A stretch of 60,758 bases of DNA from an uncultured Cocleimonas sp. (GTDB taxonomy: Bacteria > Pseudomonadota > Gammaproteobacteria > Thiotrichales > Thiotrichaceae). The position numbers and the translations under genes are program-made. The notes beneath the pieces are model-generated. The model did no database searches. It saw nothing but the letters and a program-made list of their open reading frames with translations, and was not told the origin of the DNA. Shown here piece after piece: positions 3,671-21,226 of this stretch (positions within the stretch are counted from its first letter, which is position 1; each line of letters starts with the position of its first letter). Where the stretch lies: the NCBI RefSeq assembly GCF_947495625.1, contig NZ_CANLZW010000029.1, forward strand, positions 1 through 60,758. Direction: 5' to 3'.

Positions 3671-3671
3671 G

Positions 3672-5060: not shown

Positions 5061-5217
5061 CTTTTAAATCACCCACCTTGCTCTTTCTATCCACCCAATA
5101 ACTGCGTTGTCGATGCTCGTTTGCGCTTGCAAACTCCGCGTCTTCGCCTTGCTCTTGAGTGAATATAAAGAGCAATTTGGGCAATTTAGTTTTAAATAAG
5201 ACAACATTTGAAAAAGT
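5061..5217. repeat. Repeat-like insertion between hisH and hisB
   Basis: This gap has no convincing gene. A 10-base direct repeat CCTTGCTCTT occurs at 5076-5085 and 5147-5156, enclosing about 60 bases with higher GC than the surroundings (ACTGCGTTGTCGATGCTCG and GCGCTTGCAAACTCCGCG). A short inverted repeat GCTCTT/AAGAGC is found at 5151-5156 and 5168-5173. Composition and boundaries look like a small interspersed repeat that moved into the his operon. Only one copy was seen here, so this is uncertain. Confidence 0.35.
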
Positions 5218-5811
5218 TTATAGAGAACCTTTTGTTGATGGTATTGCGTTCGCAGAACGCTCATCTCTTTCAACAGCCATACGTAATGCGCGTCCAAATG
5301 CTTTGAATATAGTTTCAGCAATATGGTGTGCGTTACGACCGCGGATATTATCCAGATGTAAGCTGACTAAAGCGTGGTTTACAAAGCCTTGGAAAAACTC
5401 GTGGAATAGATCGGTATCGAAATTTCCTAGCATTGGGCGTTTGTAATCTACAGTGTCTTCCAAATGTGGACGACCAGAAAAATCAATCACTACGCGTGAT
5501 AGTGACTCATCAAGTGGTACATAAGCGTGACCGTAACGACGGATGCCTTTTTTATCACCAATCGCTTTTGCAAAAGCCTGACCCAGTGAAATACCGATGT
5601 CTTCAACCGTATGATGCGCATCTATGTGCAGATCACCGTTTGCTTCGATTTCAATATCGATCATGCCGTGCAGCGCTATCTGGTGCATCATGTGTTCAAG
5701 GAAAGGTACTTCGGTTTTGAAGCGTGCTTTTCCCGTGCCGTCTAAATTTATATTGACGGTAATCTGTGTTTCAAAAGTATCACGTGTGATAGTGGCTGTA
5801 CGTTCGGTCAT
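5218..5811 (-). CDS. hisB: Imidazoleglycerol-phosphate dehydratase HisB
   Basis: HisB removes water from imidazole glycerol phosphate to give imidazole acetol phosphate. The start [19 protein letters not shown] at 5811 matches the family, and a longer frame reaching 5898 adds an unconserved aromatic-rich leader. The protein has the metal-binding repeats [22 protein letters not shown], the [15 protein letters not shown] segment, the LFHEFFQGF helix and a second histidine cluster [20 protein letters not shown]. It is the stand-alone dehydratase of about 197 residues, without the N-terminal histidinol-phosphatase domain of enteric HisB. It is the first his gene in this block, and its leader contains a copy of the dispersed G-run element. 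Confidence 0.96.
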
Positions 5812-5888
5812 GTTTATCATTTTCGGTTGTTTAGGTGGCGGATAATACCATATTGTGACGCGATGTAACCTGTAGAAATAGAAAGAAA

Positions 5889-5913
5889 TAGGCCCCAAAG
5901 TAGGGGGGTGCCC
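5889..5913 (+). repeat. Dispersed G-run element in the hisB leader
   Basis: The sequence GGCCCCAAAGTAGGGGGGTG matches the window consensus, with CCCC able to pair with the G run. It lies between divergent genes about 80 bases upstream of hisB. No minus-strand gene is present upstream for it to terminate. A T-rich but interrupted tract (TATTTCTTT) follows on the minus strand. Confidence 0.8.
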
Positions 5914-6128
5914 TATAAAATAGTTTAAACAGTCAATGTTCTACTTGCTCGTTTAATGCGGTTTGTTCGCATAAAACTGAACTTTCACGTTAATATTGGC
6001 GCTAAATAGATACTGGGGATATTTTTTAATAATGCAATTATCCATGGCGTGTTTAAGTGTTTGTATTGTTTTTGCTTTTTCCTATGCGGTTTGAATATTA
6101 ATAACGATGTTTTCGAATCAAACAATTA

Positions 6129-6156
6129 AAAAAAGCCCTATAAGTGGGGGGGGTGT
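6129..6156 (+). repeat. Dispersed G-run element overlapping a ribosome binding site
   Basis: Seven A, GCCCTATAAGT, then eight G and TGT end only six bases before the ATG at 6163. The G run sits nine bases upstream of the ATG and is the only purine-rich candidate Shine-Dalgarno sequence. On the minus strand the same sequence would be a hairpin followed by seven T. Confidence 0.8.
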
Positions 6157-6162
6157 AAAACT

Positions 6163-7251
6163 ATGAATAGTTTAATCGTTAAATCTGTGTTGTTTGCAAT
6201 GGCTCTTTTGATCCATCAATTTGCTGCGGCTAAATCCAATCTTGATTTGTTAAAAGTCCCTGCTGGTTTCAAGATAGAGTTATTTGAAAGTGATGTACCT
6301 AATGCGAGAACTATGGTTTTGGGTACTAATGGTACCTTGTTTGTGGGCACAAGAAACGAAGGTGTCGTTTATGCCATTAAGAATAATAAACGCTATATTA
6401 TTGCTGAAGATCTAAACATGCCGAACGGTTTAGCGTTTCGCGACAAAGCACTCTACATAGGCGCTGTAGATAAACTATTTCGAATGGATGATATTGAAGC
6501 TCGATTAGATAACCCGCCGATTCCTACTTTAATTCGAGATGATTTACCTTCTGAAACACACCACGGTTGGAGATATATGGATTTCGGTCCGGATGGCCGC
6601 TTATATATGGCCATCGGTGCGCCGTGTAATGTGTGCTTGAAGAAAGATTATGCCGTGATTCGCAGTATGAACGCGGATGGAACGGATGAACGCGTAGAGG
6701 CGAGAGGTATTCGTAATACCGTAGGTTTTACCTGGCACCCCGTATCAAAAAAATTATGGTTGAGTGATAACGGCAGAGACATGATGGGCGATGATATTCC
6801 CCCTGATGAGATCAACCGTGTTGATGAATTTCAGGAGCATTTTGGTTTCCCTTACTGTCACGGTGGAACGATTGCAGATCCTGAATTCAACGATTTATCG
6901 TGTCGAGCTTTTACGCCACCAATTCAGGCACTGGGTGCACATGTGGCTCCATTGGGTATTGCTTTTTATACAGGCAAGCAATTTCCAAAAGCTTATAAAA
7001 ACAGGTTGTTTGTCGCGGAACACGGTTCATGGAATCGCAGTAAAAAATCGGGCTACAAGGTCATGATGGCAACGATTACAGGTAGTGACGAAGATGAGAT
7101 AATCACCAAATATGAGCCATTTGTAACAGGCTGGTTACAGGGGCAAAAAGCCTGGGGCAGACCTGCTTATGTGCTTGTGCTCAAAGATGGTTCCTTATTG
7201 ATATCAGATGATAGGGGTGGCGCTATCTATCGCGTTTCATACACTCAATAA
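6163..7251 (+). CDS. Secreted PQQ-dependent sugar dehydrogenase-like beta-propeller protein
   Basis: This 362-residue protein has an N-terminal signal peptide (hydrophobic core VLFAMALLIHQFAAA, cleavage likely after AAA) and belongs to the soluble glucose/sorbosone dehydrogenase (GSDH) six-bladed propeller family. Family segments seen include LKVPAGFKIELFESDVPNARTM near the mature N-terminus, GLAFRDKALYIG, DFGPDGRLYMAIGAPCNVC, GFTWHPVSKKLWLSDNGRDMMGDDIPPDEIN, FGFPYCHGG and FVAEHGSWNRS. The family oxidises sugars in the periplasm with bound PQQ; the substrate here cannot be read. CNVC and the later cysteines are typical of the subgroup. The gene stands alone, with element copies on both sides: one at its ribosome binding site and one as its terminator. 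Confidence 0.85.
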   Translation: MNSLIVKSVLFAMALLIHQFAAAKSNLDLLKVPAGFKIELFESDVPNARTMVLGTNGTLFVGTRNEGVVYAIKNNKRYIIAEDLNMPNGLAFRDKALYIGAVDKLFRMDDIEARLDNPPIPTLIRDDLPSETHHGWRYMDFGPDGRLYMAIGAPCNVCLKKDYAVIRSMNADGTDERVEARGIRNTVGFTWHPVSKKLWLSDNGRDMMGDDIPPDEINRVDEFQEHFGFPYCHGGTIADPEFNDLSCRAFTPPIQALGAHVAPLGIAFYTGKQFPKAYKNRLFVAEHGSWNRSKKSGYKVMMATITGSDEDEIITKYEPFVTGWLQGQKAWGRPAYVLVLKDGSLLISDDRGGAIYRVSYTQ

Positions 7252-7324
7252 GTTTATGATTTGTAGTTTATTCGGGGCGTTTGATTGAAATGCTTAAGCT
7301 TCCTGATCTAACTGAGTCATCCAA

Positions 7325-7353
7325 GTCACCCCCATACTTATAGGCACTTTTTT
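7325..7353 (-). terminator. Dispersed G-run element acting as terminator of the dehydrogenase-like gene
   Basis: On the + strand GTCACCCCCATACTTATAGG is followed by CAC and six T, 75 bases after the stop at 7251. Only the core CC/GG pairs well, so the hairpin is weak, but position and T run fit termination of the + strand gene. The convergent minus-strand cyclase gene ends at 7357. Confidence 0.65.
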
Positions 7354-7356
7354 ATA

Positions 7357-9564
7357 TTACTTTTCAGTGTGATTATGAATAGGGTCCCAGTCAGTAGGTT
7401 GTTCTTTCAGGATGGTTTCGGTTCTTTCCAGATAAACCCGATAAAGCGGATCGTTTGAGGTTTCATATAATTGGCGAAAGCCTGCATGGGCTGTTTCCCA
7501 CTTTCCTGATAAATACTCAGCAAAGGTTTGCTCATGATTTTCTAGCTGGGATTTCTGTAGCTCTGTTAACTGACTGACCGTTTTCAGAGGTTCGTAGATT
7601 TTAATAGAATCCTGTTTGCCTTTTACCCTAACGTTATCTATATAGCGGAAAACAATATCAGGGCATTGTAGTTTAGTCTCTTCGCTGACTAAAATCCCAA
7701 CGCCATAGTATTTGGTTAATCCTTCGAGGCGTGATCCTAAATTAACCGCATCTCCTAACACGGTATAAGCTCTTCGATAGTCGGACCCCATGTCTCCCAC
7801 ATTCATCTCGCCCGTGTGAATGCCAATGCCTGCAGCAATATTATTGATTCCCATTTCCTTAAATGTTTTCTGCATTTTTTTGATTTTCTGCTGCATTTCC
7901 ATAGCCGCAATAACCGCTTTGGTAGCATGCTGAGGGTGGTAAATAGGAGCCCCCCAAAATGCCATCACCATATCACCCACGTATTTATCAATCGTGCCCT
8001 GGTTATTAAAGATGATTTCAGTAATAGGTGTCAGGTATTGATTGAGAAAAGTTTTCAATTGTCGTGTTGTTAACGGTTCTGACAGTGCGGTGAAGTCTCT
8101 GATATCAGAAAAAAGCACAGTCATTTCTCTTTTTTCGCCATCGGTATTTACCGCATGAGGGAACTCGATCAACTTATTGATGTGTTCTAGAGGCACATAT
8201 TGGCCAAACATATCGTGAATGCGTCGCCGACCTTTGTTTTCTTTGATCAAATCGTAGATAACATGAATCGATGAAACCGCCATTACGGTGAGTAGAGGAA
8301 TAATCAACGGTAAATTGATGTGATGAGAAGACCACATCCAGTAATTAAACCCAAACATGACGAAGACGAGTGCTGTGCCTGAAATAACTAAGCCCATGGG
8401 TTGTAGTAATGGATAAAACAGCGCCATGAATAAACTCAAGACAGCAAGCGTCATGACCGTTGCCCCAGCAGCCCAATCTGGCACATAAGCAATGTTTTCC
8501 GGATGTAATAAACCATGAAGAATATTTGCCTGAATTTCCACCCCCGGAAAGCTAGCTTGAACTGGAGTAGGGCGCAGATCTGACAAACCAACAGCAGATG
8601 TACCTACTAAAGCGATTGCATTTTCTAACTCGGGAAATGTTTTTTTGTTATGCAGGATCTCGCTTGCAGGGATATAGGGGAAATGTTTTTGTTTGCCTAG
8701 ATAAGGGATGAGAATCTGCCCTTGAGCATCCGTTTTGATAACCATTTTTCCCATGCTTAAATGGGTGATCGTTTGGGCGCTTCCTACAAAATCAGTATGC
8801 AGTTTTATTTCATCTTCCAGCAAATAAATGCGTGCAGTTTCCAACGCTAAAGAAGGGTAAATCTGGTTGTTGTAGACAGCCACTACCGGGGCTCTTCGAA
8901 TGGTTCCATCTCTATCAGGGGCAATGCTGAAAAAACCACTTCCGGCAGAATTGTTAGTAAACTCATTCAGGTTTGCGGTATACCCGAGCATGTGAATCGC
9001 CGTGAGTTTTTCCGTATTTTCAATGTCGCTTACTATGGCAGAACTAGCCAGTTTTCCCGATTGAGTCACCAGTTTTCTGTGAAATGGATAGCCTAAAACG
9101 ACTTCCTTATCTTTAATGCTGTCGGCAAAAAAGCTATCCCCGTTGAGGTTGTTTTCTATCTTTAAATACCAGTCAGGTAGTTCTTCACCTGTTTGATTTA
9201 ATGCAATCTTTACTTTCTCTAGAGGGTTTTGTTCTTTCTCTGATTGCACGACGTCCATTGCGATAACTGCAACATTGTTCTCATGCAGTTTATTGACCAG
9301 TGTGCCTATTTTTTTTCTTTCCCAGGGCCAACGCCCGTCTTTTTTTATGCTCGCTTCGTCAATGTCGATAATGATTATCGGCGGAAGTTCTGTTATTTCA
9401 ATAGGAGTGCTGAGCTTTAGGCGGATGTCGTAGGGAATCGCTTCGAGTCTTTGTTGTATATCAATACTTGTTGGATCGTCGCTCAAATAAAAAAGAGCAG
9501 CAAGTATGGTTAAAACGATACCTGTAATGATGGGTAGTAGAGATTGTTTATGTTTACTAAACAG
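7357..9564 (-). CDS. CHASE2-domain adenylate/guanylate cyclase, membrane bound
   Basis: This is a class III nucleotide cyclase with an extracytoplasmic CHASE2 sensor. Conserved coding continues upstream of the TTG at 9486. The preceding 26 codons encode SKHKQSLLPIITGIVLTIL, the N-terminal membrane helix a CHASE2 protein needs. The open frame there contains no ATG, GTG or TTG; CTG at 9564, seven bases after GAGGG, is my choice. CHASE2 features are YDIRLKL, IDIDEASIKKDGRWPWERKKIG and LVGTSAVGLSDLRPTPV. Three membrane helices follow, around residues 360-440 of the extended protein. The cyclase domain has VLFSDIRDFTALSE (metal-binding Asp), YVGDMVMAFWGAP (second Asp) and VLGDAVNLGSRLEGL. It is divergent from the surface lipoprotein, Slam-like and FecR genes, and families like these are often neighbours. 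Nucleotide specificity (cAMP or cGMP) is not decided. Confidence 0.9.
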   Translation of the reverse strand: MFSKHKQSLLPIITGIVLTILAALFYLSDDPTSIDIQQRLEAIPYDIRLKLSTPIEITELPPIIIIDIDEASIKKDGRWPWERKKIGTLVNKLHENNVAVIAMDVVQSEKEQNPLEKVKIALNQTGEELPDWYLKIENNLNGDSFFADSIKDKEVVLGYPFHRKLVTQSGKLASSAIVSDIENTEKLTAIHMLGYTANLNEFTNNSAGSGFFSIAPDRDGTIRRAPVVAVYNNQIYPSLALETARIYLLEDEIKLHTDFVGSAQTITHLSMGKMVIKTDAQGQILIPYLGKQKHFPYIPASEILHNKKTFPELENAIALVGTSAVGLSDLRPTPVQASFPGVEIQANILHGLLHPENIAYVPDWAAGATVMTLAVLSLFMALFYPLLQPMGLVISGTALVFVMFGFNYWMWSSHHINLPLIIPLLTVMAVSSIHVIYDLIKENKGRRRIHDMFGQYVPLEHINKLIEFPHAVNTDGEKREMTVLFSDIRDFTALSEPLTTRQLKTFLNQYLTPITEIIFNNQGTIDKYVGDMVMAFWGAPIYHPQHATKAVIAAMEMQQKIKKMQKTFKEMGINNIAAGIGIHTGEMNVGDMGSDYRRAYTVLGDAVNLGSRLEGLTKYYGVGILVSEETKLQCPDIVFRYIDNVRVKGKQDSIKIYEPLKTVSQLTELQKSQLENHEQTFAEYLSGKWETAHAGFRQLYETSNDPLYRVYLERTETILKEQPTDWDPIHNHTEK

Positions 9565-9805
9565 CTTATTACCCTCGAAAATTATATGACAAAGAAGTAG
9601 TTAACTAAATAATAGTGAATTAACCCTAAAATGTGAAAAATTACCCTTTTTTCTATTATCAACAGGTTAGCATCAGTAAGTCAGCGTGGAAAGCAGTTGC
9701 GTTTTTATGCTGCCAGTGTGATGGAAAACACTGAAATTACCAACAATTATAATTTGGACTATAGTTTATTGTGATGGAATATAACAAACGTATTGAGAGG
9801 GAGTT

Positions 9806-12800
9806 GTGAAAGGAATCTGTATTAGCTTCTCAAAAATGATTAAGCTGCTAATGCTATCGTTTGTTGTATCGCTATTGTCATCTTGCGGAGGCGGTGGCGG
9901 CTCTTCAACGTCTTCCTCTTCCTCTTCAAACACTATTCAACAGGCGACAAAGATAACAACCGGTGTCGCCCAAAAAGGCCCGTTCTCAATCAATACGCCA
10001 GTTGAAATATCGAGGCTGAATTCTGTCGGACAGCCGACAGGTGATACTATTTCTGCAAAGGTAAGCGCTAATAATGGTGAGTTTAGCTTCCAGCTTCCTG
10101 CAGAATGGGATACAGCTGCGCCAGTTAACCTTTATTTGAAAGCGAGAGGAAAAGTCTTTGATGAATCTTTAGGGATAGAGTTAGAAACGCCTATAACATT
10201 AACGGCAATCACTCAAAGCACCGATAATGAATCAAGCCTAAATTCAGTCAATATACTCACACACTGGCAAGCCCAGCGAACGCAGACACTCTTGGCAGAA
10301 GGTAAAGGTTTTAATCAATCACTCAAACAGGCAAATGATGAGCTTGTGAAGGTATTTGGAATAGATCGAATTCATTCTTTGGATTTTTCTAGCTCTGATG
10401 ACGAAAGCAATAGCGCCATGTTGCTTTTATTATCAGGTGTATTAATGGAAGTTGCCCGGGCACATCAAGTTGAACCACAATCGATGATTGATCAGATAGG
10501 CGATGATTTTTCCAATGACGGAAACTTGTCTGCTGAAGGTGATCAGTGGTTCTTGCGCATGCAAGCAGCAATTAAAGATAACCCCATCGCCCATGCAAAA
10601 AAATACGCAAAGCGTTTACAGGAAAAGCAGGCTATCGATGTTGTATCTGTTAGTAGCTTGCCTCGCAACTTTCCATTGGCTTCTCGTCCTGTAGCAAATG
10701 TGCCCGCCGAATTATTTGCATCACCCGGCGAGACAATTGTTCTTGATGGTAGCGGTAGTCACGATAGCGGTAACATAATCAATTTCACCTGGTTTCGAGT
10801 CGATCAGCAAACGCAATACCCTGTTCCTGTCAGTGATAGATTTGACTCAAGTCCAACCATTACAGTACCAAGCGAGGCAGAAGTTTTAGCCGCGCCGAAT
10901 CAAGAGATCGCATTGCTTTATGCTTTAGTCGTGACCGATGAGGCAAAACTAACGCATACAGGTGTTGTGAAAGTTATTGTTAAAAAAACGCCGATAGATA
11001 ACACCCCCCCACTTGCAGAGCCTCAGCAATTAACAACAGATGAAGATGTGCCATTAAAAATCACATTAACGGGAAGTGATGAGGATGGCGATCCAATCGT
11101 ATTTAATTTAAATACACCACTATCTACCGCTAACGGAATAATAGAACTAGACCCAGACTTGGGTTCTGCCTTGCCTAATGTAGTTTATACCTCAACCAAA
11201 GATTATTTTGGTTCTGATAGTTTTACGTTTTTGGTTAATGATGGATTTGAAAGCTCTAATGTTGCCACTGTAGATATTCAGATAACACCCGTTAATGATC
11301 CACCTGAAGCTGATGCAGATGAAGATCAAATCGTCGAAAGTTCACAAACAGTCTTACTTAACGGCTTAGGTAGCACAGATGTAGATGGAACGGTTGAAGC
11401 GTATTTATGGCAGCAACAACCGGGGGGCTCGGTAGTAAGCCTTAGTGATGTGTCTGATTCTAATCCTAGCTTTACAGCTCCAGCTGTTTCAAGTGTTTCT
11501 GAGACGCTTATATTTGACTTGGTAGTAACTGACAATGATGGGGCTGAGTCAGCAGTCGATACAGTCGAAATAACAATTAATCCATTAAATGAAGCGCCTA
11601 TTGCGATAGCAGGTGATGATCAAGAAGTTTTTTCTGGGGATTTAGTTAATCTTAATGGCTCAGGCACGGATGTGGATGGTGATGTTGTTGGATTCCTTTG
11701 GGCTCAGAGTAGTGGCTCTGCCGTTAGTCTTAGCAATACAGGTATTGCGGCTCCTGGTTTTACCGCTCCTACAGTACAGAGTGCTCCAGAAATATTAATT
11801 TTTAATTTAATAGTGACTGATAATGATGGTGCAAAATCAGTAAGTGATTCTGTAGAAATTGTGGTAAACCCTCCCGGAAACAATATGCCTGTTGCTAATG
11901 CTGGTCTAGATCAAGCAATTGCTTCTGTAAGAACATCTTTTGGAAGCGGGTTTCAAGAAGCTACACTCCCAATAACACTTGATGGTTCAGGTAGTTCTGA
12001 TCTTGAGGATCCAATATCGGATTTAAGATTTAATTGGACTCAGGTAAGTGGCCCGGTAGCGGTTGATCCAGATGATGACATTAAGCCTGTTTTTAATATT
12101 GTTGGAGGTTCGTCACAAGTTATTTCTGGGGACTATGTGTTTAAGTTGGAGGTTACCGATTCAGGTAACTTAGTTTCTGATCCTGATGAAATTACAATTA
12201 CCGTAGGTCCAAATCAACCGCCTATAGCTGATGATTTGTTTATCCCCATAGATTTATCAGGTAATCCAACTTCAATTACTTTAGTTGGCAATGATCCCGA
12301 TGGAAATAATGCAAATTTAACGTATGAGGTTCTGACTCAACCTATTACTGGTAATTTGACTGTTACTTATACTGATAATATCTTGGAATATCAACCCTAC
12401 AGCATAAGTTCTCCTGAAATTGATAGCTTTACGTACAGAGTTGTAGATGAGCTAGGCTTAGGATCTAATGTAGCAACTGTTAATTTGACGGAGCCTAATA
12501 CCCCTCCTACTGCAAACGCGGGCTATTTTAGTGGATCTGCAGTGGCACTAGTAACAGGTGATCCAAGTAACCCAGTGGGTTTTGAAGAAACATCGGTAAT
12601 TACTTTAGATGGTTCGTATAGTTCTGACGCTGAAGATGCGAATACTGATCTGAGTTATCAATGGAGTCAAATGTCAGGGCCTATTACAATTCCCGTTGCG
12701 GATATTCCTCAAGTAATGGAGCCCTCATTCACTATTATTAATACTAATGTAAGTCAGTCTATCGTTGGTGAGTATGTGTTTCAATTAGTGGTCACTGATA

Positions 12801-13801
12801 GAGGTGGATTAATATCGGTTGCCGATCAAGTCTCATTTTTCATCTCTCTACCTAATCCAAGCGTTATTGCATTACCTGGTGAAGATAGAGATGAAATAGA
12901 GTTGACCACAGTCCAACTTTATGGATCTGGAAGTGCTCCTCAAGGATTAGATAATTCAACATTTGTATGGGAGTGGACACAAATTGATATTATCCCAGGT
13001 ACTGAGATTGATTTAGTATTTGATCCAACTTATCAGCGATACACGCCAACTTTTATTGCCCCTGCAGTAACTGTACCTACTGAGATAAAATTACAATTAA
13101 TTGTATTTGATAATGAATTCGGGTTTTCTGAGCCTGCTGTTGTAGTAATAACTATCTATCCAACAGGAACTATCCTTACAAATGTAAAACCAACAGCCGT
13201 AGATCAAAATGTTATAACCAATGCGAACGGATCACTTTCGAGTGTTTCGTTATTAGGGGATGACCCTGATGGCGATAATCGTGGTTTAACTTATAGGGTA
13301 ATTGGCTTGTCAGATGATACAAGAGGAAGAATCAACTCTATTAGCTATTTAGATGTAATTGGTGTTAATCCAAGGGTTTTTTATGAGCCTTTTTATCCTG
13401 TACTCGAAAATACACTGACCTACGTTGCAATAGATCAAGATGGCGCTGAGTCAGATCCTGCAACGGTAATTTTCACACCGCTAACTTCTCCGCCTGGCAA
13501 TACTGCTCCAGTAGCACAGAGTATTACGATAGATATTGATCCACCATTATCTTCAAGTAATAGTCGCTATATCCTGGATTTGTCAACATTGATTCAAGAT
13601 GCTGATGGTGACGAGTATATTATAGATGTTATTAGCCAGGAAGATACGCAAGTCAATTTCACAGAATTTAGTGGAAATAGCTTGCGTATGGATAATAATT
13701 CTAGAACCTCAGCGGCCACAGGGAGTTATACATATCGAGCGATTGATATTTATGGAAACGCTTCAGCCCCTGCCACCATAACGATTAACTACAATGAATA
13801 A
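9806..13801 (+). CDS. Large surface lipoprotein with tandem PKD/cadherin-like repeats
   Basis: This 1331-residue protein has a lipoprotein signal (LLMLSFVVSLLSSC, lipidated Cys27) followed by a flexible GGGGGSSTSSSSSS tether. The GTG start at 9806 is supported by GAGAGGGAG just upstream; ATG at 9836 is an alternative giving the same mature protein. Residues about 45-290 form an N-terminal domain of no recognised function. Residues about 300-1331 contain eight or more Ig-like units, including PKD-type (LDGSGSHD, VLLNGLGSTD, ITLDGSGSSD, ITLDGSYSSD) and cadherin-like stretches with Asp-rich loops (DEDGDP, DVDGTV, DVDGDV, DPDGNN, DPDGDN, DADGDE) that suggest calcium binding. Such proteins act as adhesins or rigid stalks. 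The next gene begins two bases after the stop and encodes a Slam-like outer-membrane protein, which suggests a cargo-exporter pair. Confidence 0.85.
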   Translation: MKGICISFSKMIKLLMLSFVVSLLSSCGGGGGSSTSSSSSSNTIQQATKITTGVAQKGPFSINTPVEISRLNSVGQPTGDTISAKVSANNGEFSFQLPAEWDTAAPVNLYLKARGKVFDESLGIELETPITLTAITQSTDNESSLNSVNILTHWQAQRTQTLLAEGKGFNQSLKQANDELVKVFGIDRIHSLDFSSSDDESNSAMLLLLSGVLMEVARAHQVEPQSMIDQIGDDFSNDGNLSAEGDQWFLRMQAAIKDNPIAHAKKYAKRLQEKQAIDVVSVSSLPRNFPLASRPVANVPAELFASPGETIVLDGSGSHDSGNIINFTWFRVDQQTQYPVPVSDRFDSSPTITVPSEAEVLAAPNQEIALLYALVVTDEAKLTHTGVVKVIVKKTPIDNTPPLAEPQQLTTDEDVPLKITLTGSDEDGDPIVFNLNTPLSTANGIIELDPDLGSALPNVVYTSTKDYFGSDSFTFLVNDGFESSNVATVDIQITPVNDPPEADADEDQIVESSQTVLLNGLGSTDVDGTVEAYLWQQQPGGSVVSLSDVSDSNPSFTAPAVSSVSETLIFDLVVTDNDGAESAVDTVEITINPLNEAPIAIAGDDQEVFSGDLVNLNGSGTDVDGDVVGFLWAQSSGSAVSLSNTGIAAPGFTAPTVQSAPEILIFNLIVTDNDGAKSVSDSVEIVVNPPGNNMPVANAGLDQAIASVRTSFGSGFQEATLPITLDGSGSSDLEDPISDLRFNWTQVSGPVAVDPDDDIKPVFNIVGGSSQVISGDYVFKLEVTDSGNLVSDPDEITITVGPNQPPIADDLFIPIDLSGNPTSITLVGNDPDGNNANLTYEVLTQPITGNLTVTYTDNILEYQPYSISSPEIDSFTYRVVDELGLGSNVATVNLTEPNTPPTANAGYFSGSAVALVTGDPSNPVGFEETSVITLDGSYSSDAEDANTDLSYQWSQMSGPITIPVADIPQVMEPSFTIINTNVSQSIVGEYVFQLVVTDRGGLISVADQVSFFISLPNPSVIALPGEDRDEIELTTVQLYGSGSAPQGLDNSTFVWEWTQIDIIPGTEIDLVFDPTYQRYTPTFIAPAVTVPTEIKLQLIVFDNEFGFSEPAVVVITIYPTGTILTNVKPTAVDQNVITNANGSLSSVSLLGDDPDGDNRGLTYRVIGLSDDTRGRINSISYLDVIGVNPRVFYEPFYPVLENTLTYVAIDQDGAESDPATVIFTPLTSPPGNTAPVAQSITIDIDPPLSSSNSRYILDLSTLIQDADGDEYIIDVISQEDTQVNFTEFSGNSLRMDNNSRTSAATGSYTYRAIDIYGNASAPATITINYNE

Positions 13802-13803
13802 AT

Positions 13804-15126
13804 ATGAGAAATTTCAATAAATCTTTCAAATGGTTATTTTGTTTGGGCTTAATCTTGATTCAGTCGAGTTCAATAGCGACGAATAAATATGATGTGCTTG
13901 AAAAATTGGTAAAACAACAAAAGTATCAACAAGCATATCAACAAGCCATAAAAACCCGTTCTCAAAATGAAGGTGATCCTCGTTTTGATTACTTATATGG
14001 CTTATCTGCGATGCAAACTGGCCATTACAATGAAGCGGTATTTGCATTAGATCGAGTGACAGTCTCTTCGCCTAATGTCATTCGCCCGCGTTTGGAGTTA
14101 GCTCGCGCCTACTTAAGCCTTAACAACTCTTACGCGGCAAAAAAAGAATTCAATGATGTTTTGAATTTAAATCCACCGCCTGTTGTAAGAAAAAAAGTAC
14201 AGGCTTATCTGGCAGAATTAGAGAAAAAAGGGGATAGAATCACACAGCACTCTGTCACTAAGAGCCTCGCATCATTGTCTTTTGGTTACGATGATAATAT
14301 CAATTTTGGTTACGATAATGCTGAGATTGATCTTTCTGATTTTGGGGTGGTTACTTTGAATGATTCTTCGGTGAAGCAGGGCAGTGGTTTTGCGGAGGGA
14401 AAGTTTCAATTCAAACATCGCACCTTGAAGAATAAAGTGAAAAGTACGTTTTTTTCGGCGAATGCAACGCACCGAGAATACTTTAAAAATTCTGATTTCA
14501 ATGTAACTGATTTGGATTTGCGTACGGGTATCACCTTTAACCATGCGAAAAAACAATATCAATTAGTGGGCAGAACGCGCCCTGTGATGCTAGGTGGGGA
14601 GTTGTATTCAAATACTATTGGTGTTGATGCTATTGCTCGAAAATCCATAGGCTCCTCTCAGGTAGGGAGCCTTAAACTGAGTATCGAAAAGTATGACAAC
14701 AAAAAGGTTGCGCTCAGCGATAGAAGCAGAGCAATTGTTTCAGGCCGAATTGATAAACAAGTTGGTGACACGCAACATCAGTTGAATCTTTATTTGGGTA
14801 AGGAATGGCCAGACAAATCCGAAGGTAAACAATACAGCCGAAATATTAGTGGAATAGGGTATTGGGCGGTCAAAGAGTGGAATAAGAAAGATAGAACCTA
14901 CCTGGGTCTCGATTATCGTCACTACAAACATCAGCAAGCTTATGCGATTTACGATAATAAACGCAGCGATGATCGATTCATCTTTAAAGTGGGTCATGAG
15001 CATCGGTTTAATGATGAACTCGCGTTTATTGCGCAGGCAAGACACATCAATAATCAAAGTAATCTGGATCTATACGATGCAAAAAGAAACGAAGTAAAAG
15101 TAGGTATTCGCTATGACTGGGATTAA
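13804..15126 (+). CDS. Slam-like TPR plus outer-membrane beta-barrel protein
   Basis: This 440-residue protein has a signal peptide (WLFCLGLILIQSSSIA). TPR-type helices span residues about 30-140 (QQKYQQAYQQAI, FDYLYGLSAMQTGHYNEAVFALDRV, RLELARAYLSLNNSYAAKKEF). A strand-rich region then runs from residue about 150 to the end, beginning FGYDDNINFGYDNAEIDL. That order (periplasmic TPR, then a barrel with a GYDxNxN start) is the layout of the DUF560 family of surface lipoprotein assembly modulators. These move lipoproteins from the periplasmic side of the outer membrane to the surface. The gene follows the large lipoprotein by two bases and overlaps the FecR gene by 14 bases, so all three are translationally coupled. 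The link to Slam rests on architecture and context, not on an alignment. Confidence 0.75.
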   Translation: MRNFNKSFKWLFCLGLILIQSSSIATNKYDVLEKLVKQQKYQQAYQQAIKTRSQNEGDPRFDYLYGLSAMQTGHYNEAVFALDRVTVSSPNVIRPRLELARAYLSLNNSYAAKKEFNDVLNLNPPPVVRKKVQAYLAELEKKGDRITQHSVTKSLASLSFGYDDNINFGYDNAEIDLSDFGVVTLNDSSVKQGSGFAEGKFQFKHRTLKNKVKSTFFSANATHREYFKNSDFNVTDLDLRTGITFNHAKKQYQLVGRTRPVMLGGELYSNTIGVDAIARKSIGSSQVGSLKLSIEKYDNKKVALSDRSRAIVSGRIDKQVGDTQHQLNLYLGKEWPDKSEGKQYSRNISGIGYWAVKEWNKKDRTYLGLDYRHYKHQQAYAIYDNKRSDDRFIFKVGHEHRFNDELAFIAQARHINNQSNLDLYDAKRNEVKVGIRYDWD

Positions 15127-16654
15127 TAAAACAATTGTATTTTCTGTTTGTCTGATTGTTTTATCGGCATTCGCAAATACCAAGGTCATGGCGGCAGAAA
15201 AAGAAGCGGGTAAAACGCTCTTGACCCGTGGAGAAGTCATTGGGCAACGCGATGGGAAAAACATTACGTTAAAACGTCGTTCGAATATTTATGAGAAAGA
15301 TGAAATTCGAGTGGGTAAAGATGGTCGCGCCCAGTTTAGAATGATTGATCAGGCCTTAATTTCTCTCCAGGAAAACTCAGTATTACAAATTAAAAAATAC
15401 CAGTTTGTTGAAGGTGAGACTACCAACTCTGCGTTACTGGAACTGTTGTCGGGTGGTTTAAGAACCATCACCGGAGCCATTGGTAAAGGCAATAAAAAAG
15501 CCTATGAACTCAGAACTCCTCTGGCGACCATTGGTATTCGCGGCACGGATTATGAGGTAGAAATTGTCTCTAATGGTATGTATGTCGCCGTTTGGGAAGG
15601 CGTCATCCATTTGCGTGCTCGTTTGCGTAGTGGTTGCAATATATTATTGGGGCGTTCCAAGCCTTTCATGTTTATCTTTATTGATCGCTTGGGTAAATGT
15701 ACCGGCTTAGATGAAGTTCCCGATGTATTTAGAGATGGACACAGCTCAAACATTAAAATACCTGCAGCTAATAATGTATTAGATGCGAATTACGTGACGG
15801 GTAAGGAGCTGTTGGCTAGACCTGTTCTATTGGATCCTAGCATTGAAGTGATAAGCAATAGTCAGCCGCCTGTTACACCTCCGGTTACTCCGCCTGTAAC
15901 TCCACCCGTTGAGCCTCCGGTAACGCCGCCAACCACGCCACCAGTTATTCCGCCACCTGAAGTGACTTACGAGGTAAGTGCTTTTGCGATTGACCAAACG
16001 CGACCTTCAACAGAACTGGATGTTTCGGCATCAGAATTAAACACGGCAACACCAACTTTTAATGTGGGTTTGAATTTATTAGATAATGCAGCAGGAAGCG
16101 CCGTACAAAATTACGAGCAATCCGTTGGTGGTTATGCGGTTAGTTGGGGATATTGGGGAGAGTTTAATTCCACTTTGGCAAGTAGGAATGTCGATGATTC
16201 AAGCAATAGAGGTCTCCTCTGGGCAACTTATGAAGCAACTGACCCTGATGTCGTCAGTGCCAGAACCGGAACCTTCAATCGTTATGATAATGTCTCAAAC
16301 AGTCTCTTAAGCGCTACAGCGGGAGACGCTAGTAATCTACAAGTGCAAATGGATGTGAATTTCGAATCGGGTGCTGTCAGTAATGGTGCACTATCGGCAA
16401 ATACGCCCAATGAAACATGGGTTGCCGTATTTGATGGTCAGATTACCTCAGGAGATCTGGATCTTCAAATGAATGGTGCCAGCGTGATAGATTCAAATCC
16501 CAATACAGCAAGTCCACCGCGCGATGCGAGTGGTTTTATTGCTGGTGATTTTGTGGGTGAGAATGCAGAAGCCATACTCGGTGCATTTGGTTTGTCAGAA
16601 GATGCTGATCCCAGTAATAATATCGAAGGGTTATTTACAGTTGAAGAGCAATAA
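15113..16654 (+). CDS. FecR-domain protein with proline-rich linker
   Basis: This 513-residue exported protein has a signal peptide (VFSVCLIVLSAFANTKVMAA). A FecR domain spans residues about 40-155: LTRGEVIGQRDGK, RRSNIYEKDEIRVGKDGRAQFRM, ISLQENSVLQIKKY, LLSGGLRTITGAIG and ELRTPLATIGIRGTDYEV. A two-cysteine segment follows (CNILLG and KCTGL). Next is a linker with at least six PPVTPP-like repeats (residues about 250-285) and a 230-residue C-terminal region that is not recognised. This differs from the classical FecR anti-sigma regulator, having no cytoplasmic N-terminus or single-span topology and no adjacent sigma factor. It resembles the periplasmic FecR-domain proteins found beside CHASE2 cyclases. 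The 14-base overlap with the Slam-like gene indicates coupling. Its function is unknown; a periplasmic scaffold or ligand-sensing role is possible. Confidence 0.75.
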   Translation: MTGINKTIVFSVCLIVLSAFANTKVMAAEKEAGKTLLTRGEVIGQRDGKNITLKRRSNIYEKDEIRVGKDGRAQFRMIDQALISLQENSVLQIKKYQFVEGETTNSALLELLSGGLRTITGAIGKGNKKAYELRTPLATIGIRGTDYEVEIVSNGMYVAVWEGVIHLRARLRSGCNILLGRSKPFMFIFIDRLGKCTGLDEVPDVFRDGHSSNIKIPAANNVLDANYVTGKELLARPVLLDPSIEVISNSQPPVTPPVTPPVTPPVEPPVTPPTTPPVIPPPEVTYEVSAFAIDQTRPSTELDVSASELNTATPTFNVGLNLLDNAAGSAVQNYEQSVGGYAVSWGYWGEFNSTLASRNVDDSSNRGLLWATYEATDPDVVSARTGTFNRYDNVSNSLLSATAGDASNLQVQMDVNFESGAVSNGALSANTPNETWVAVFDGQITSGDLDLQMNGASVIDSNPNTASPPRDASGFIAGDFVGENAEAILGAFGLSEDADPSNNIEGLFTVEEQ

Positions 16655-16685
16655 GTGAAGAACAATAAATGAAGTGCTATGGTAA

Positions 16686-16713
16686 AAACTGCCTAAAAGT
16701 AGGGGGGGTGACC
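16686..16713 (+). terminator. Dispersed G-run element, terminator of the DUF523 gene
   Basis: The + strand reads GCCTAAAAGTAG, more G, then TGAC. On the minus strand this gives CCTACTTTTAGG followed by CAGTTTTT, 32 bases beyond the stop of the minus-strand DUF523 gene. It lies between convergent genes. Confidence 0.75.
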
Positions 16714-16744
16714 TTTATAACTATTACTTACATTTATGGTTTAT

Positions 16745-17236
16745 TTAACCATTGTCTAAATAGTAATCGAGTTCATCTAATTGGTTTTGATTGAAAACCC
16801 GGATATTGTTTTTCTCTAAGAGCGCTGTTGTGACTCCCATTCCAAGAATTAAATCCTTGTTGAAGGTGCCATCGTAAACCATGCTACTGCCGCATGAAGG
16901 GCTTCTTTCGGTGAGTATCGCCACTTTGCAATTGTTGGCTAAAGCTAGTTGTAATGCTTTATTAGCGCCGTCTATAAACATCTGTGTTACATCTTCACCA
17001 TCTACTTGTAAAATTTTAGTTTTGCCATCAAGTACACTGTTTGCATCACCAAATTGAATCTCAGCAGGAAGACGTGGGGTTGGTAATCCGCCAGCAACTT
17101 CTGGACAAATGGCAACTAAGCGTTCTTCATCTCTCCATTTAGTCATTAAAGGATGGTCTAGCATTAAGTCAGCTCCATTGTAACGAACTGGTTTTCCAAT
17201 GAGACAAGCGCTGATTAAAATATTCCCTTGAGAGAT
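16745..17236 (-). CDS. DUF523 family protein with apparent AUC start
   Basis: The protein contains SACLIGKPVRYNGAD, ICPEVAGGLPTPRLPAEIQ and the SPSCGSSMVYDG cysteine motif of the DUF523 family, which is of unknown function with conserved cysteines that may hold a metal or cofactor. The first ATG (17164) would delete SACLIGKPVRYNG. The open frame continues upstream to an in-frame stop, but without ATG, GTG or TTG. ATC at 17236 lies eight bases after AAAAGGA and gives SQGNILISACLIG as the second residue onward, a normal N-terminus for this family. I therefore extend the gene to 17236, giving 163 residues, the usual length. A point change from ATG to ATC, a sequencing error or a genuinely unusual start are all possible. 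Confidence 0.8.
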   Translation of the reverse strand: MSQGNILISACLIGKPVRYNGADLMLDHPLMTKWRDEERLVAICPEVAGGLPTPRLPAEIQFGDANSVLDGKTKILQVDGEDVTQMFIDGANKALQLALANNCKVAILTERSPSCGSSMVYDGTFNKDLILGMGVTTALLEKNNIRVFNQNQLDELDYYLDNG

Positions 17237-17287
17237 GTTTGTATTCCTTTTTTATTTTCCCTATGTAATAAATTTCAAATGAATTAA

Positions 17288-17896
17288 CTAGGGATTTTTA
17301 CGAATTTGTGTAACTACATCACGGCTAAATCGTGTGAGAGCTTCACTTTGAGCATTAACATACGCAGTATAGCCTGAGCCTTTTAGGGGAACTGTTATTA
17401 ATGCACGTTTTACCAATAATTCTTTGTCATTTTTTAGTAGGCGCCAACGAGCATTAAGCGTAACGTTTTTATGCGTTGGGCTATTTATATCACCATCAAA
17501 ACTCTCGATGTCGATACGCACCTGATAGTCTGGTTGAAAGGTAGATTTCCACGGATATTGTTCAATTTTTTCCGTTTTTAACAATACCGAAAGATTATCT
17601 GTAATAGCTTTGTTGAGTTCTTCTTTGTAAGAACCACCCCATTGATGGCTCTCTGACATGATGATTTCAGATTTGTTTTTTCGGCTAACTATTTGTGGAC
17701 GATTGAGCAATCGAGGTATTTCAACTGGGCCAATACCGATGCTGATTTTATTAGCGCTTGCCGCAGCACTAGGTTTCATGGAAGACAGCGAATAAAAGTG
17801 TGTTCCTCCCAGATTGCCAGATGATGAATTGCTACTACAGCCAGAAAGTGCGCTGAAAATTAAGATAAAAACAGGTAGAGCTAAAATTTTAATCAT
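17288..17896 (-). CDS. pqiC: PqiC-like outer-membrane lipoprotein
   Basis: This 202-residue lipoprotein (signal LPVFILIFSALSGC, lipidated cysteine near residue 20) carries the ABC-type transport auxiliary lipoprotein fold. Its segments are FYSLSSMKP, ISIGIGPVEIPRLLNRPQIV, ESHQWGGSYKEELNKAITDNLSVLL and a closing ALTRFSRDVVTQI helix. In E. coli PqiC is an outer-membrane lipoprotein that contacts the PqiB tunnel of the Pqi lipid-transport system. It is the last gene of pqiA-pqiA-pqiB-pqiC here, 78 bases after pqiB. Confidence 0.88.
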   Translation of the reverse strand: MIKILALPVFILIFSALSGCSSNSSSGNLGGTHFYSLSSMKPSAAASANKISIGIGPVEIPRLLNRPQIVSRKNKSEIIMSESHQWGGSYKEELNKAITDNLSVLLKTEKIEQYPWKSTFQPDYQVRIDIESFDGDINSPTHKNVTLNARWRLLKNDKELLVKRALITVPLKGSGYTAYVNAQSEALTRFSRDVVTQIRKNP

Positions 17897-17974
17897 GTTG
17901 ATCTACTTTTTATTTGCCGTTTGCATAGTTCTTTGAATAGTTGTTTGGTTAATTATTTATTGATGACGAGACGC

Positions 17975-19810
17975 TTATTTGCCAAAAATAAGTGAATCGG
18001 GTTTACGTTGAAGTGTATCTGCCAATACTGAAAATGACTTAGACGCTTCGGTTAATTCATTAATTAATACTCGTAAACGATGTTGTAATACCGAGTCTTC
18101 ACTCAAGGTAGACTTCAAGCCAGCATCCAGTGTGTTGCTGGTTCTATTGATGCTTTGCATGGTTTTGGCTGCACTCTGCTCAAGCTTATTGCCGACATTA
18201 CTAAATGTTTTTAAGGTGTGGCCCGCATCTTTTTGCAGTTTATCAGTTGCCGATGAAATGGTGACGACAGCCTTTTGCGCATCTAACATTAATCGATTGA
18301 TAGATTCGGTGGTCTTTTTTGCGCTTGTTAAGGTTTTGACTAACTCTTGAGAAAAGCCTTCTTTATCTAATTGACTGGTAATTCGATCTAAATTTGCAGT
18401 GGTATTAGCAAGTCCAGTGAGTGTCTTTTTGACGTCGTTTGAATTGATCAATGCTTTGATGCTGGCAAGTGTCTCTGTTAATTCTTCTGATATCTCCGTG
18501 GCATCAAAATTCATCAACGTGGATTGTGCCGCAGTGGTTGGGAATCTTGATGCTTTGCTTATGCTGGTAGGCATTAGAGAAAATTCATTTCTTCCTTTTT
18601 CGCCCGTTATTAGTCTGCTAGGTGGTATATCAAGTGAAATATATTGTGAGCCGGTTAATAAACTATCCACGACCAATTGCGCTTGAAGCCCTTCTTCAAC
18701 AAGCTCTTTCAATTTTGCTTCGGCTTCTTTGGCATCTGCTTTGCGTGAAAATTTATCAATGCGCAATGAGACTTTTACCGCTGCTCTGATGTTGTCATTA
18801 GCCTCATCATGTTGCAGTGATATTTTTTCCACTCTACCTACTCTGACACCGCTATATTCGATATTTGAATCTTCTGTTAGGCCGTGTAATGAATCATCAA
18901 AATACATGGTGTAAAACAGTTTGTTATAAAGCTCAGTATTTTCCTGTGCAACTTTATAGGAGTCATAAAGAGTAAATGCAGTCTCGCCGCTAATCTCCTT
19001 ACTAACGCCATCTTTAGGTGTTTCAAATGCAATGCCACCAATCAGTAGGGAAGTCATCGATTCCATTCTGGTTGATATCCCATTGGCAGAAATATCCACC
19101 TCGATGCCGCTGGCATTCCAGAAGCGCGTGTTGCTCTTGATTAGTTTGTCATACGGTTCGTGTACATAGATGAACACGTCAATACTTTCAGTATCTGAAT
19201 TCAATCGATAACTGGTAACCTCACCAACATTGATTTTGTTGTAGTAAACAGGAGAGCCAATATCAAGCGAACCCAGATTTTCGGTACGCATCGCTATGCG
19301 TGTACCACTGGCGTCATTGGTGATAAATGGAGCGGTTGCAAGACCCAGATAACTATCAAGCGGTTCACTTTTTGCGCCGGGGTCGAGTCCAATATAAACA
19401 CCAGAGAGTAATGTATCCAAACCGCTAACCCCTTGCAGTGTAATGCGCGGTTTCTTGACCCAGAATCTAGTATTGGTCCCCAGATTATCTGCCATTTCAG
19501 GGAAAATTTCGGCTGTCACTCTGACCTTGTTTAAGTCTTCTGTTAAGCGTAATTTTCTCACTTTGCCAACAACTACATCTTTATAGCGTATCGGTGTTTT
19601 CTTCTCTTCTATGCCGGCAGCTTCATCAAATGTGATATTAATAATGGTGCCGCGTTCGCTGTAATATTTGAAAATTAGCCAACCACCAATTAACGCTGCA
19701 GTTATAGGAATGATCCAGATTAAAGAAAAACGTGCTTTGGGATTAACCTGGGCGTATGGAAGATCATCGGTGTTAATTCCACTACCAGAATTAGATTCGG
19801 TTTGAGCCAT
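17975..19810 (-). CDS. pqiB: PqiB-like MCE-domain protein
   Basis: PqiB spans the periplasm as a stack of MCE rings and long helices forming a lipid tunnel. The 611-residue product has one N-terminal membrane helix (FSLIWIIPITAALIGGWLIF), then three MCE units. The first begins ITFDEAAGIEEKKTPIRYKDVVVGKV, the second MRTENLGSLDIGSPVYYNKINVGEV and the third YFDDSLHGLTEDSNIEYSGVRVGRVE. A long helical C-terminus of about 170 residues (SEELTETLASIKALINSNDV onward) follows. Length and order match PqiB rather than the seven-MCE YebT. It lies two bases after the second PqiA gene. Confidence 0.93.
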   Translation of the reverse strand: MAQTESNSGSGINTDDLPYAQVNPKARFSLIWIIPITAALIGGWLIFKYYSERGTIINITFDEAAGIEEKKTPIRYKDVVVGKVRKLRLTEDLNKVRVTAEIFPEMADNLGTNTRFWVKKPRITLQGVSGLDTLLSGVYIGLDPGAKSEPLDSYLGLATAPFITNDASGTRIAMRTENLGSLDIGSPVYYNKINVGEVTSYRLNSDTESIDVFIYVHEPYDKLIKSNTRFWNASGIEVDISANGISTRMESMTSLLIGGIAFETPKDGVSKEISGETAFTLYDSYKVAQENTELYNKLFYTMYFDDSLHGLTEDSNIEYSGVRVGRVEKISLQHDEANDNIRAAVKVSLRIDKFSRKADAKEAEAKLKELVEEGLQAQLVVDSLLTGSQYISLDIPPSRLITGEKGRNEFSLMPTSISKASRFPTTAAQSTLMNFDATEISEELTETLASIKALINSNDVKKTLTGLANTTANLDRITSQLDKEGFSQELVKTLTSAKKTTESINRLMLDAQKAVVTISSATDKLQKDAGHTLKTFSNVGNKLEQSAAKTMQSINRTSNTLDAGLKSTLSEDSVLQHRLRVLINELTEASKSFSVLADTLQRKPDSLIFGK

Positions 19811-19812
19811 GT

Positions 19813-21155: not shown

Positions 21156-21226
21156 GTGCGATATATTGACAGAAATTAATGCTAAAATCCTAATTCATTA
21201 AGGACTCAAAATTAGTCTCATTTTAT

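Follow-up and report, generated by a model that had tools for sequence, protein, structure and literature searches.

Type 11 secretion systems (T11SS; the Slam/DUF560/SlipAM family, PF04575) combine an outer-membrane protein made of tetratricopeptide repeats (TPRs) and a 14-stranded barrel (PMC5449769) with cargo proteins described as an effector followed by a pedestal and a C-terminal eight-stranded barrel, the N-terminal effector being variable and many of the cargos soluble (PMC12282271). One member of the family, Slam1, moves TbpB in an unfolded state (PMC9090332). Here we describe a locus in a 60,758-nucleotide stretch of DNA from an uncultured Cocleimonas sp. (NZ_CANLZW010000029.1, hereafter the window; contig G000:C29 of a 4.6-Mb genome), in which the gene for a Slam-like barrel protein overlaps the gene for a FecR-domain protein and a CHASE2-domain cyclase gene lies nearby on the opposite strand. 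What is new here is that the barrel and the FecR protein are read as exporter and cargo. The word 'FecR' occurs nowhere in the main text of PMC12282271, nor in PMC8406197 and PMC5449769, as far as the available portions of these papers go, and no publication treating a FecR protein as cargo of a T11SS was found in the literature searched, whose coverage left bioRxiv and most subscription journals outside.

Parts of this gene set have been described together in other bacteria. In Campylobacterota, genes for a CHASE2 adenylate cyclase, a phosphodiesterase, a FecR protein and a TPR protein form a cluster for which the authors proposed one signalling pathway (PMC9239204). CHASE2 cyclase, FecR and TPR protein stand together there as they do here; three of the four gene types are found at our locus, no phosphodiesterase gene being linked in the window, and the available text neither terms the Campylobacterota TPR protein a barrel or Slam relative nor mentions a cargo domain (PMC9239204). 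A first-pass annotation of the window had held that no description of its four genes acting together was known, a statement that this cluster leaves only partly right. The BiofilmReg operon of Burkholderia couples a LysM-FecR protein to a CHASE2 sensor enzyme as well, there a histidine kinase and not a cyclase, with no barrel and no TbpB-type domain mentioned in the accessible part of the paper, which describes the input detected by CHASE2 sensors as unknown (PMC5192318). In Sinorhizobium meliloti, the outer-membrane barrel NsrA is required for signals that act via the CHASE2 cyclases CyaD1, CyaD2 and CyaK (PMC7529298, PMC13001267). That system resembles the window in having an outer-membrane barrel and CHASE2 cyclases; the comparison is one of role.

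Like a T11SS, the locus encodes a predicted TPR and 14-stranded outer-membrane barrel protein and, in an adjoining gene, a secreted-type protein with a predicted C-terminal handle and eight-stranded barrel. It differs from the described systems in that its barrel stands apart from strongly scoring Slams in a tree, in that the candidate cargo begins with a FecR domain, an architecture not named in the cargo section of PMC12282271 as available, and in its gene order, barrel before FecR, with a linked CHASE2 cyclase. The features of the pair are as follows.

13804..15126, + strand: Slam-like outer-membrane protein (TPR/barrel), 440 amino acids (aa), from Pfam, AlphaFold2, VIA and the tree
13891..14232, + strand: N-terminal TPR domain of the barrel protein, residues 30-143, from AlphaFold2 helices, TPR Pfam matches and VIA (Z 17.8 to SycD)
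14248..15120, + strand: predicted 14-stranded beta-barrel, residues 149-439, from AlphaFold2 strands and VIA (Z 22.1 to CymA, 21.1 to OmpG)
15113..16654, + strand: 513-aa fusion of FecR and TbpB-type domains, predicted to be the cargo or a partner of the barrel, from Pfam, NCBIfam and structure prediction
15113..15193, + strand: putative signal peptide of the FecR protein, type I by eye, without a lipobox, from the hydrophobic N-terminus and a simple lipobox test
15203..15709, + strand: FecR beta-domain, residues 31-199 (PF04773, 2.3e-14; VIA Z 15.3 to the PupR periplasmic domain)
15725..15973, + strand: low-confidence proline-rich linker, residues 205-287 (confidence score pLDDT <50 at 211-260, 262-268 and 278-284; proline density)
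15959..16651, + strand: predicted C-terminal TbpB-type handle and eight-stranded barrel, residues 283-513, final strands 388-512 (predicted structure; VIA Z 14.5)
16145..16156, + strand: WGYW, matching the signature WG[RYKSDF][WY], close to where the C-terminal domain begins, from alignments of relatives

To survey the pairing, relatives of the window barrel were selected in genome contigs by the barrel alone (196 relatives), and the 80 best-scoring of the 196 loci were scanned. A FecR gene lay directly downstream of the barrel gene on the same strand in 71 of the 80 loci by script, and in 72 when L046 is counted, where the FecR gene follows an interrupted barrel gene. The FecR gene thus adjoins the gene for a T11SS-type outer-membrane protein, as a cargo gene does, both in these loci and in the window, where the two genes overlap by 14 nt. 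The pair was found in Gamma- and Betaproteobacteria; the closest named relative in the contig scan was Cocleimonas flava DSM 24830, with a barrel protein 91% identical. Among the remaining loci, the FecR gene is upstream in L103, L061 stops at the contig end, and L089 was scored as lacking FecR by the hidden Markov model (HMM), yet the N-terminus of its downstream protein looks by eye like a diverged FecR domain. One further locus, recorded as L012/L017 (G002:C430), comes from a metagenome assembly; a TAG breaks its barrel gene, and a FecR gene follows downstream.

The FecR assignment was checked with Pfam on the window protein and 51 of 70 FecR open reading frames (ORFs), all of them picked beforehand by our own FecR HMM, the 12 long and 7 cut or short ORFs being set aside; Pfam FecR was confirmed in 52/52 scanned proteins. 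Three long FecR proteins were scanned apart, of which two matched Pfam FecR and that of L090 had no Pfam match. A second selection used PF04575 only and 276 Gammaproteobacteria. It listed 37 matches, of which 33 loci were fetched, several per genome in some cases (the unfetched matches were, in G168, two pieces at a single strong site and a fragment of 35 aa, plus a fragment in G120). A FecR gene stood next door in 17 of 22 weakly matching loci (19-41 bits) versus none of 11 strong ones (at least 73 bits; Fisher p 2e-5, ancestry ignored), with the qualifications that the strong locus L156 ends 155 nt downstream of the barrel and that the 'FecR' ORFs of L173 are fragments. In the genome of the window itself (4.6 Mb), SlipAM and TbpB_B_D each have one match (E<=0.1, both below cut-off) and CHASE2 and FecR each have one (E<=0.001, over cut-off), and all four fall in this stretch, which is more than chance. 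Taken together, these data firmly establish the barrel-FecR pair as real and widespread.

FecR domains are periplasmic relays in anti-sigma systems, whose FecR/PupR regulators consist of a cytoplasmic anti-sigma domain, a membrane helix and the periplasmic part. The window protein shares the FecR domain fold (PF04773, E=2.3e-14; VIA Z 15.3 to PupR) but has a putative signal peptide in place of the anti-sigma domain and membrane helix: a hydrophobic, type I-like N-terminus, judged by eye and without a lipobox by a simple test, leads straight into the FecR domain. We therefore rejected an anti-sigma FecR regulator as its identity, the protein having no anti-sigma part. Its C-terminus matched TbpB_B_D (PF01298) at E=0.0023 (18.9 bits, cut-off 26) and the NCBIfam model NF041636 slam_lipo ('Slam-dependent surface lipoprotein') at E=0.022, below cut-off. 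A structural model built from 22 sequences (mean pLDDT 77.5) assigned residues 31-199 to the FecR domain and 388-512 to the eight last strands, with the linker falling mostly within 211-284. The top PDB rows of a Foldseek search with this model were TbpB (8.7e-7), followed lower down by Vibrio HphA (1.2e-4), NHBA (0.004) and HpuA and fHbp (about 0.02), while PupR and another anti-sigma factor matched the FecR part. Because the Foldseek TbpB alignments spread over the whole two-domain model, at 16-18 A root-mean-square deviation (rmsd), the TbpB-fold match rests on VIA, which laid residues 287-513 on the TbpB C-lobe with Z 14.5 and 4.0 A over 200 residues and gave 12.4 for NHBA and 11.4 for fHbp. 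Most of the matched structures (TbpB, HphA, NHBA, HpuA, fHbp) are known Slam/T11SS cargos. A sequence search of the PDB with a profile of the C-terminal domain gave four matches at E<=10, taken as chance: a 'conserved hypothetical protein' scored best (E 0.0052), and the others were free serine kinase. The relation to TbpB therefore rests on the predicted structure and the weak Pfam and NCBIfam matches. The C-terminal ~230 residues of the FecR protein are thereby predicted to form a TbpB-type handle and eight-stranded barrel. By this prediction it is the FecR protein, and not the PKD-repeat lipoprotein encoded upstream of the barrel, that carries the T11SS-cargo fold, a point that the first-pass annotation had missed.

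The barrel protein matched TPR repeats in Pfam, with SlipAM at E=0.012 (15.6 bits, cut-off 22) and TPR_Slam at 0.0055, below cut-off. AlphaFold2, given a 60-sequence alignment, predicted that residues 30-143 form TPR helices and residues 149-439 form 14 long strands, with mean pLDDT 93.5. In VIA-align the barrel fitted the CymA/OmpG fold and the TPR part fitted SycD, at the Z-scores listed above. SlipAM was matched by 33/60 barrel relatives at E<=0.01 (best 2.4e-14), and some FecR-linked barrels exceeded the PF04575 cut-off in the PF04575-selected set. In a quick, unrooted tree of 91 barrels with several long branches, all 11 strongly scoring SlipAM proteins fell on one side of a branch (approximate likelihood-ratio support, SH-aLRT, 90), and the window barrel belonged to a 76-row group with support 97; the FecR-linked L171 and three weak rows lay outside this group. 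A PDB sequence search with the barrel profile returned 85 matches at E<=1, and the 60 listed were nearly all TPR proteins plus OmpX, with no Slam among them. The Slam architecture that the first-pass annotation had read from 13804-15126 was borne out by the predicted TPR and 14 strands and by the relatives that reach PF04575; its suggested profile search yielded no score over the cut-off for the window protein, and the tree no grouping with canonical Slams. The barrel is best called a member of a Slam-related, FecR-linked family outside the canonical Slam/T11SS group.

We then asked how the C-terminal domain is distributed among FecR proteins, using an HMM built mainly from close relatives of the window protein. 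Of 61 complete FecR ORFs (271 to 2474 aa), 27 (413 to 2474 aa) had the domain as their extreme C-terminus, and it was present in 10 of the 12 ORFs of at least 1400 aa. Some long FecR ORFs had five or six domain matches, part of them weak. A short signature, WG[RYKSDF][WY], picked after viewing the alignments, occurred in 47/66 complete FecR ORFs >300 aa (0.67 expected from shuffles) versus 1/755 other ORFs. In 42 of these 47 carriers its distance from the C-terminus was 155-196 residues; 11 of 18 FecR ORFs in the PF04575-selected set also had it. A proline-rich linker, defined as at least 12 prolines in some 40 residues after the FecR domain, was found in 16/32 domain-bearing FecR ORFs. A fixed C-terminal domain behind a variable middle is the pattern that an export tag should show. 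As a separate observation, eight Gammaproteobacterial FecR ORFs of 1056-2374 aa (L051, L052, L054, L056, L058, L060, L068 and L072) each had at least three TbpB-type matches, some weak; all are much longer than the window protein.

The other genes of the locus lie upstream of the pair.

7357..9564, - strand: CHASE2-domain class III nucleotidyl cyclase (Pfam CHASE2 1.1e-54, Guanylate_cyc 5e-21; ORF 7357-9486 in the first-pass annotation)
9565..9805, no strand: divergent intergenic region, with one site resembling that of CRP, 2 mismatches, at 9717-9732, not above chance
9806..13801, + strand: PKD/Ig/cadherin-repeat lipoprotein, 1331 aa (LLSSC lipobox by eye; PKD/Big_9/cadherin Pfam domains)

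All four ORFs of the first-pass annotation are present where it placed them, and the cyclase start alone needs correcting. The TTG at 9486 sits within a hydrophobic N-terminal segment, and the frame continues upstream to an in-frame CTG at 9564 that is preceded by a GAGG motif and gives about 735 aa. Judging from the translation, in which the hydrophobic segment upstream of TTG 9486 would supply an N-terminal membrane anchor, the CTG at 9564 is the likely cyclase start, with a probable signal anchor. The same upstream frame (window 9484-9564, - strand) stands in Cocleimonas flava. The CHASE2 domain (186.1 bits, E=1.1e-54) and the class III cyclase domain (75.5 bits, E=5e-21) both exceed the Pfam cut-offs, and the catalytic motifs were located; the product is presumably cyclic AMP (cAMP).

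A CHASE2 gene was present in 16 of the 80 barrel loci, against a rough chance level of about one of 80 loci, taking two CHASE2 genes per 3 Mb; among the 48 loci with flanks of more than 4 kb each, 14 had one. CHASE2 itself is common, occurring in 158/276 Gammaproteobacteria. Within 36 genomes of one family code, to which we apply the name Thiotrichaceae from its named members, CHASE2 was found in 19/20 genomes with FecR versus 3/16 without. When the same genomes were divided by the C-terminal domain, CHASE2 was found in 15/16 with the domain versus 7/20 others (p 4e-4, Fisher, ancestry ignored). Five of those seven others (G012, G019, G021, G030 and G035) carry a second operon form, in which FecR, CHASE2 cyclase and a barrel-like protein are encoded side by side in 8/8 fetched loci (L202-L209). 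The order is FecR, cyclase, barrel-like protein in seven of these, with the cyclase first in L203, and L205 has a FecR gene at both ends. The barrel of this form is weakly supported: its HMM match was fair in 5/8 (>260 model positions) and partial in 3/8; of three second-form barrel-like proteins scanned with Pfam, one had TPR matches and two had nothing at E<=0.1. The WGxW signature occurred in 9/10 FecR ORFs of the loci fetched around the second form, one of these ORFs being of the first form. The trio of FecR, CHASE2 cyclase and barrel thus recurs in two arrangements.

These observations could be joined in the following mechanism. Its core would be the two-gene pair, a Slam-like outer-membrane protein with a periplasmic TPR domain and a 14-strand barrel, and a FecR protein with a TbpB-type handle-barrel end. 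By analogy with T11SS, the barrel would recognise the TbpB-type C-terminal domain and move it unfolded to the cell surface, and it likely exports at least that domain of the FecR protein. The N-terminal FecR domain would remain periplasmic, with the linker running through or beside the pore. The input sensed by the surface domain might be a ligand, a surface or the status of export, and the FecR domain would report to the CHASE2 domain of the adenylate-type cyclase, which is often linked to the pair in several gene orders and whose sensor domain would face the periplasm, altering cAMP. The PKD lipoprotein would be an accessory adhesin of the lineage. An exporter-cargo pair of barrel and FecR protein taking part in outside-in, surface-to-cAMP signalling is the best explanation that we can offer, and we hold it to be somewhat more probable than not. 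The computations show the predicted folds, the order of the domains, the pairing and the co-conservation; export, topology, the FecR-CHASE2 contact and cAMP as the product are the steps that we infer. Its most specific form is a tethered surface sensor, one polypeptide spanning the outer membrane with its FecR end in the periplasm and its TbpB-type end outside, the two joined by a flexible linker that is proline-rich in the window protein, and signalling to the CHASE2 cyclase, the giant relatives being adhesins held by their FecR end; this we put forward tentatively, as possible and not yet probable. The orientation with the FecR end inside and the tail outside is favoured because FecR domains act as periplasmic relays elsewhere and because FecR and CHASE2 genes go together.

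Several results weigh against this explanation. Both the window barrel and the C-terminal domain score below curated Pfam cut-offs; the polysaccharide exporter BcsC tops the Foldseek list for the barrel, the porin model BBP2_2 is matched by more of the barrel relatives (37/60) than SlipAM is, and in the tree one FecR-linked barrel, L171, stands next to the canonical Slams. On the cargo side, the HMM detects the C-terminal domain in only the 27 FecR ORFs noted above, TbpB_B_D is matched at E<=0.01 in 11 of the 52 Pfam-scanned FecR proteins, the linker is short or proline-poor in the other 16 of the 32 domain-bearing ORFs, and the TbpB alignments of Foldseek cover the whole two-domain model at high rmsd. 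Five loci have the barrel without FecR (L055, L063, L064, L067 and L106), for which loss or misassembly of a repetitive gene would be an explanation. CHASE2 is missing from most of the barrel loci, and among 20 hand-sampled CHASE2 loci, the barrel-FecR pair was present in 2 and a FecR gene in another 3. Finally, a FecR protein among the Clr targets in Sinorhizobium was found not to be needed for signal perception (PMC5498481), which may be taken as a caution. The five FecR-less loci, in one of which (L106) the barrel is split, lie mostly in the clade with giant FecR genes.

The alternative that survives best is a plain T11SS, in which the whole FecR protein, its FecR domain included, is cargo of the barrel and ends up at the surface or in the medium, FecR acts as the effector and the cyclase is a regulatory or historical neighbour. 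A variable effector with a C-terminal barrel, often soluble, is the published cargo pattern (PMC12282271), and the FecR protein without a lipobox by the simple test and the many barrel loci without CHASE2 suit this account. However, it leaves unexplained both the co-occurrence of FecR and CHASE2 across the Thiotrichaceae genomes and the operons that combine FecR and a CHASE2 cyclase with a barrel-like protein, and we consider it unlikely, if a serious contender. Less likely again is a receptor barrel, whose outer loops would bind a signal while the TbpB-type domain docks from the periplasm and FecR relays to the cyclase, as in an NsrA-like system. The NsrA precedent (PMC7529298, PMC13001267), the porin-like matches of the barrel and the weak SlipAM score of the window protein speak for such a receptor, whereas the C-terminal domain has a predicted T11SS-cargo fold and the long, multi-hit FecR proteins make more sense as surface proteins than as relays in the periplasm.

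The first-pass annotation had the barrel displaying its 1331-residue PKD lipoprotein; on that reading, FecR and CHASE2 would regulate it. The lipoprotein gene does end 2 nt before the barrel gene, and lipoprotein genes precede the barrel in Cocleimonas/Leucothrix loci; in Rheinheimera (L065) and Marinifaba (L076), cadherin-type genes again accompany the pair. Against this, no TbpB-type Pfam match was found in the lipoprotein at E<=1, and while barrel and FecR persist, the lipoprotein gene is missing from both Thiothrix loci, in which the barrel and cyclase genes are immediate neighbours in divergent orientation, and no comparable large gene lies just upstream of the barrel in most non-Thiotrichaceae loci. 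In G023, the pair lacks an upstream lipoprotein gene, and a lipoprotein-like gene and a cyclase gene stand divergent on another contig. The lipoprotein as barrel cargo, with no handle domain found by Pfam and no co-conservation, was rejected as very improbable. An adhesin is a recurrent, not a constant, member of the gene set, and the PKD lipoprotein is a lineage-specific, adhesin-like addition. The same annotation had allowed for a barrel unrelated to Slam and for genes not conserved together outside this strain, and that combination was not found: barrel and FecR are co-conserved far outside it and CHASE2 less strictly so, the PKD lipoprotein being the one that is not.

A BcsC/PgaA-type exopolysaccharide export barrel, suggested by BcsC, which with the porin CymA after it heads the Foldseek rows, and by the shared TPR-plus-barrel layout, is barely credible and was rejected on its 14 strands versus 16 in PgaA-type barrels (PMC8406197), with the steady FecR partner of cargo fold and the lack of a polysaccharide synthase by eye among the ORFs of 3000-22000 (where the flanking Pfam scan covered ORFs 6163, 16745 and 17288 only) also against it.

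If the pair works as read, CHASE2 cyclases would gain a concrete upstream input, the FecR domain would gain a role outside sigma-factor control, and type 11 secretion would extend from nutrient capture and adhesion to signalling. Should the tethered sensor prove true, the secretion pore would itself be part of a route from the outer membrane to cAMP. For the non-canonical part of the Slam family, the analysis also offers a class of predicted cargo marked by a simple sequence signature, and it bears on how outer-membrane signals reach an inner-membrane cyclase.

Searches for regulatory signals and mobile copies gave little. The CRP-site search of the window found 23 matches (up to 2 mismatches) versus 30 expected, so that the promoter site at 9717 is no evidence of regulation; promoter and terminator scans gave signals not above shuffles, a plasmid search with the barrel had no match, and none of the three flanking ORFs scanned with Pfam (6163, 16745 and 17288) is a sigma factor.

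Two further neighbours recur beside the pair. In six Thiotrichaceae, a gene for an MBL-fold hydrolase adjoins FecR; some relatives have it beside FecR or CHASE2 (examples are L024:8573-9448 and L059:12714-13577), and it is unlinked in the genome of the window (G000:C22:32133-32966). The hydrolase was found in 11/16 genomes with the C-terminal domain versus 1/20 others (p 7e-5, Fisher, shared ancestry ignored). That it might act as the phosphodiesterase is a guess, prompted by the Campylobacterota cluster (PMC9239204). Downstream of the barrel-FecR pair, a gene of 716-766 aa stands in seven loci (L071, L074, L082, L085, L087, L091 and L098); 7 of 33 scanned neighbour proteins match Glyco_transf_41 with TPRs, probably the products of those seven genes, and a glycosylation partner of the pair is a possible role for them.

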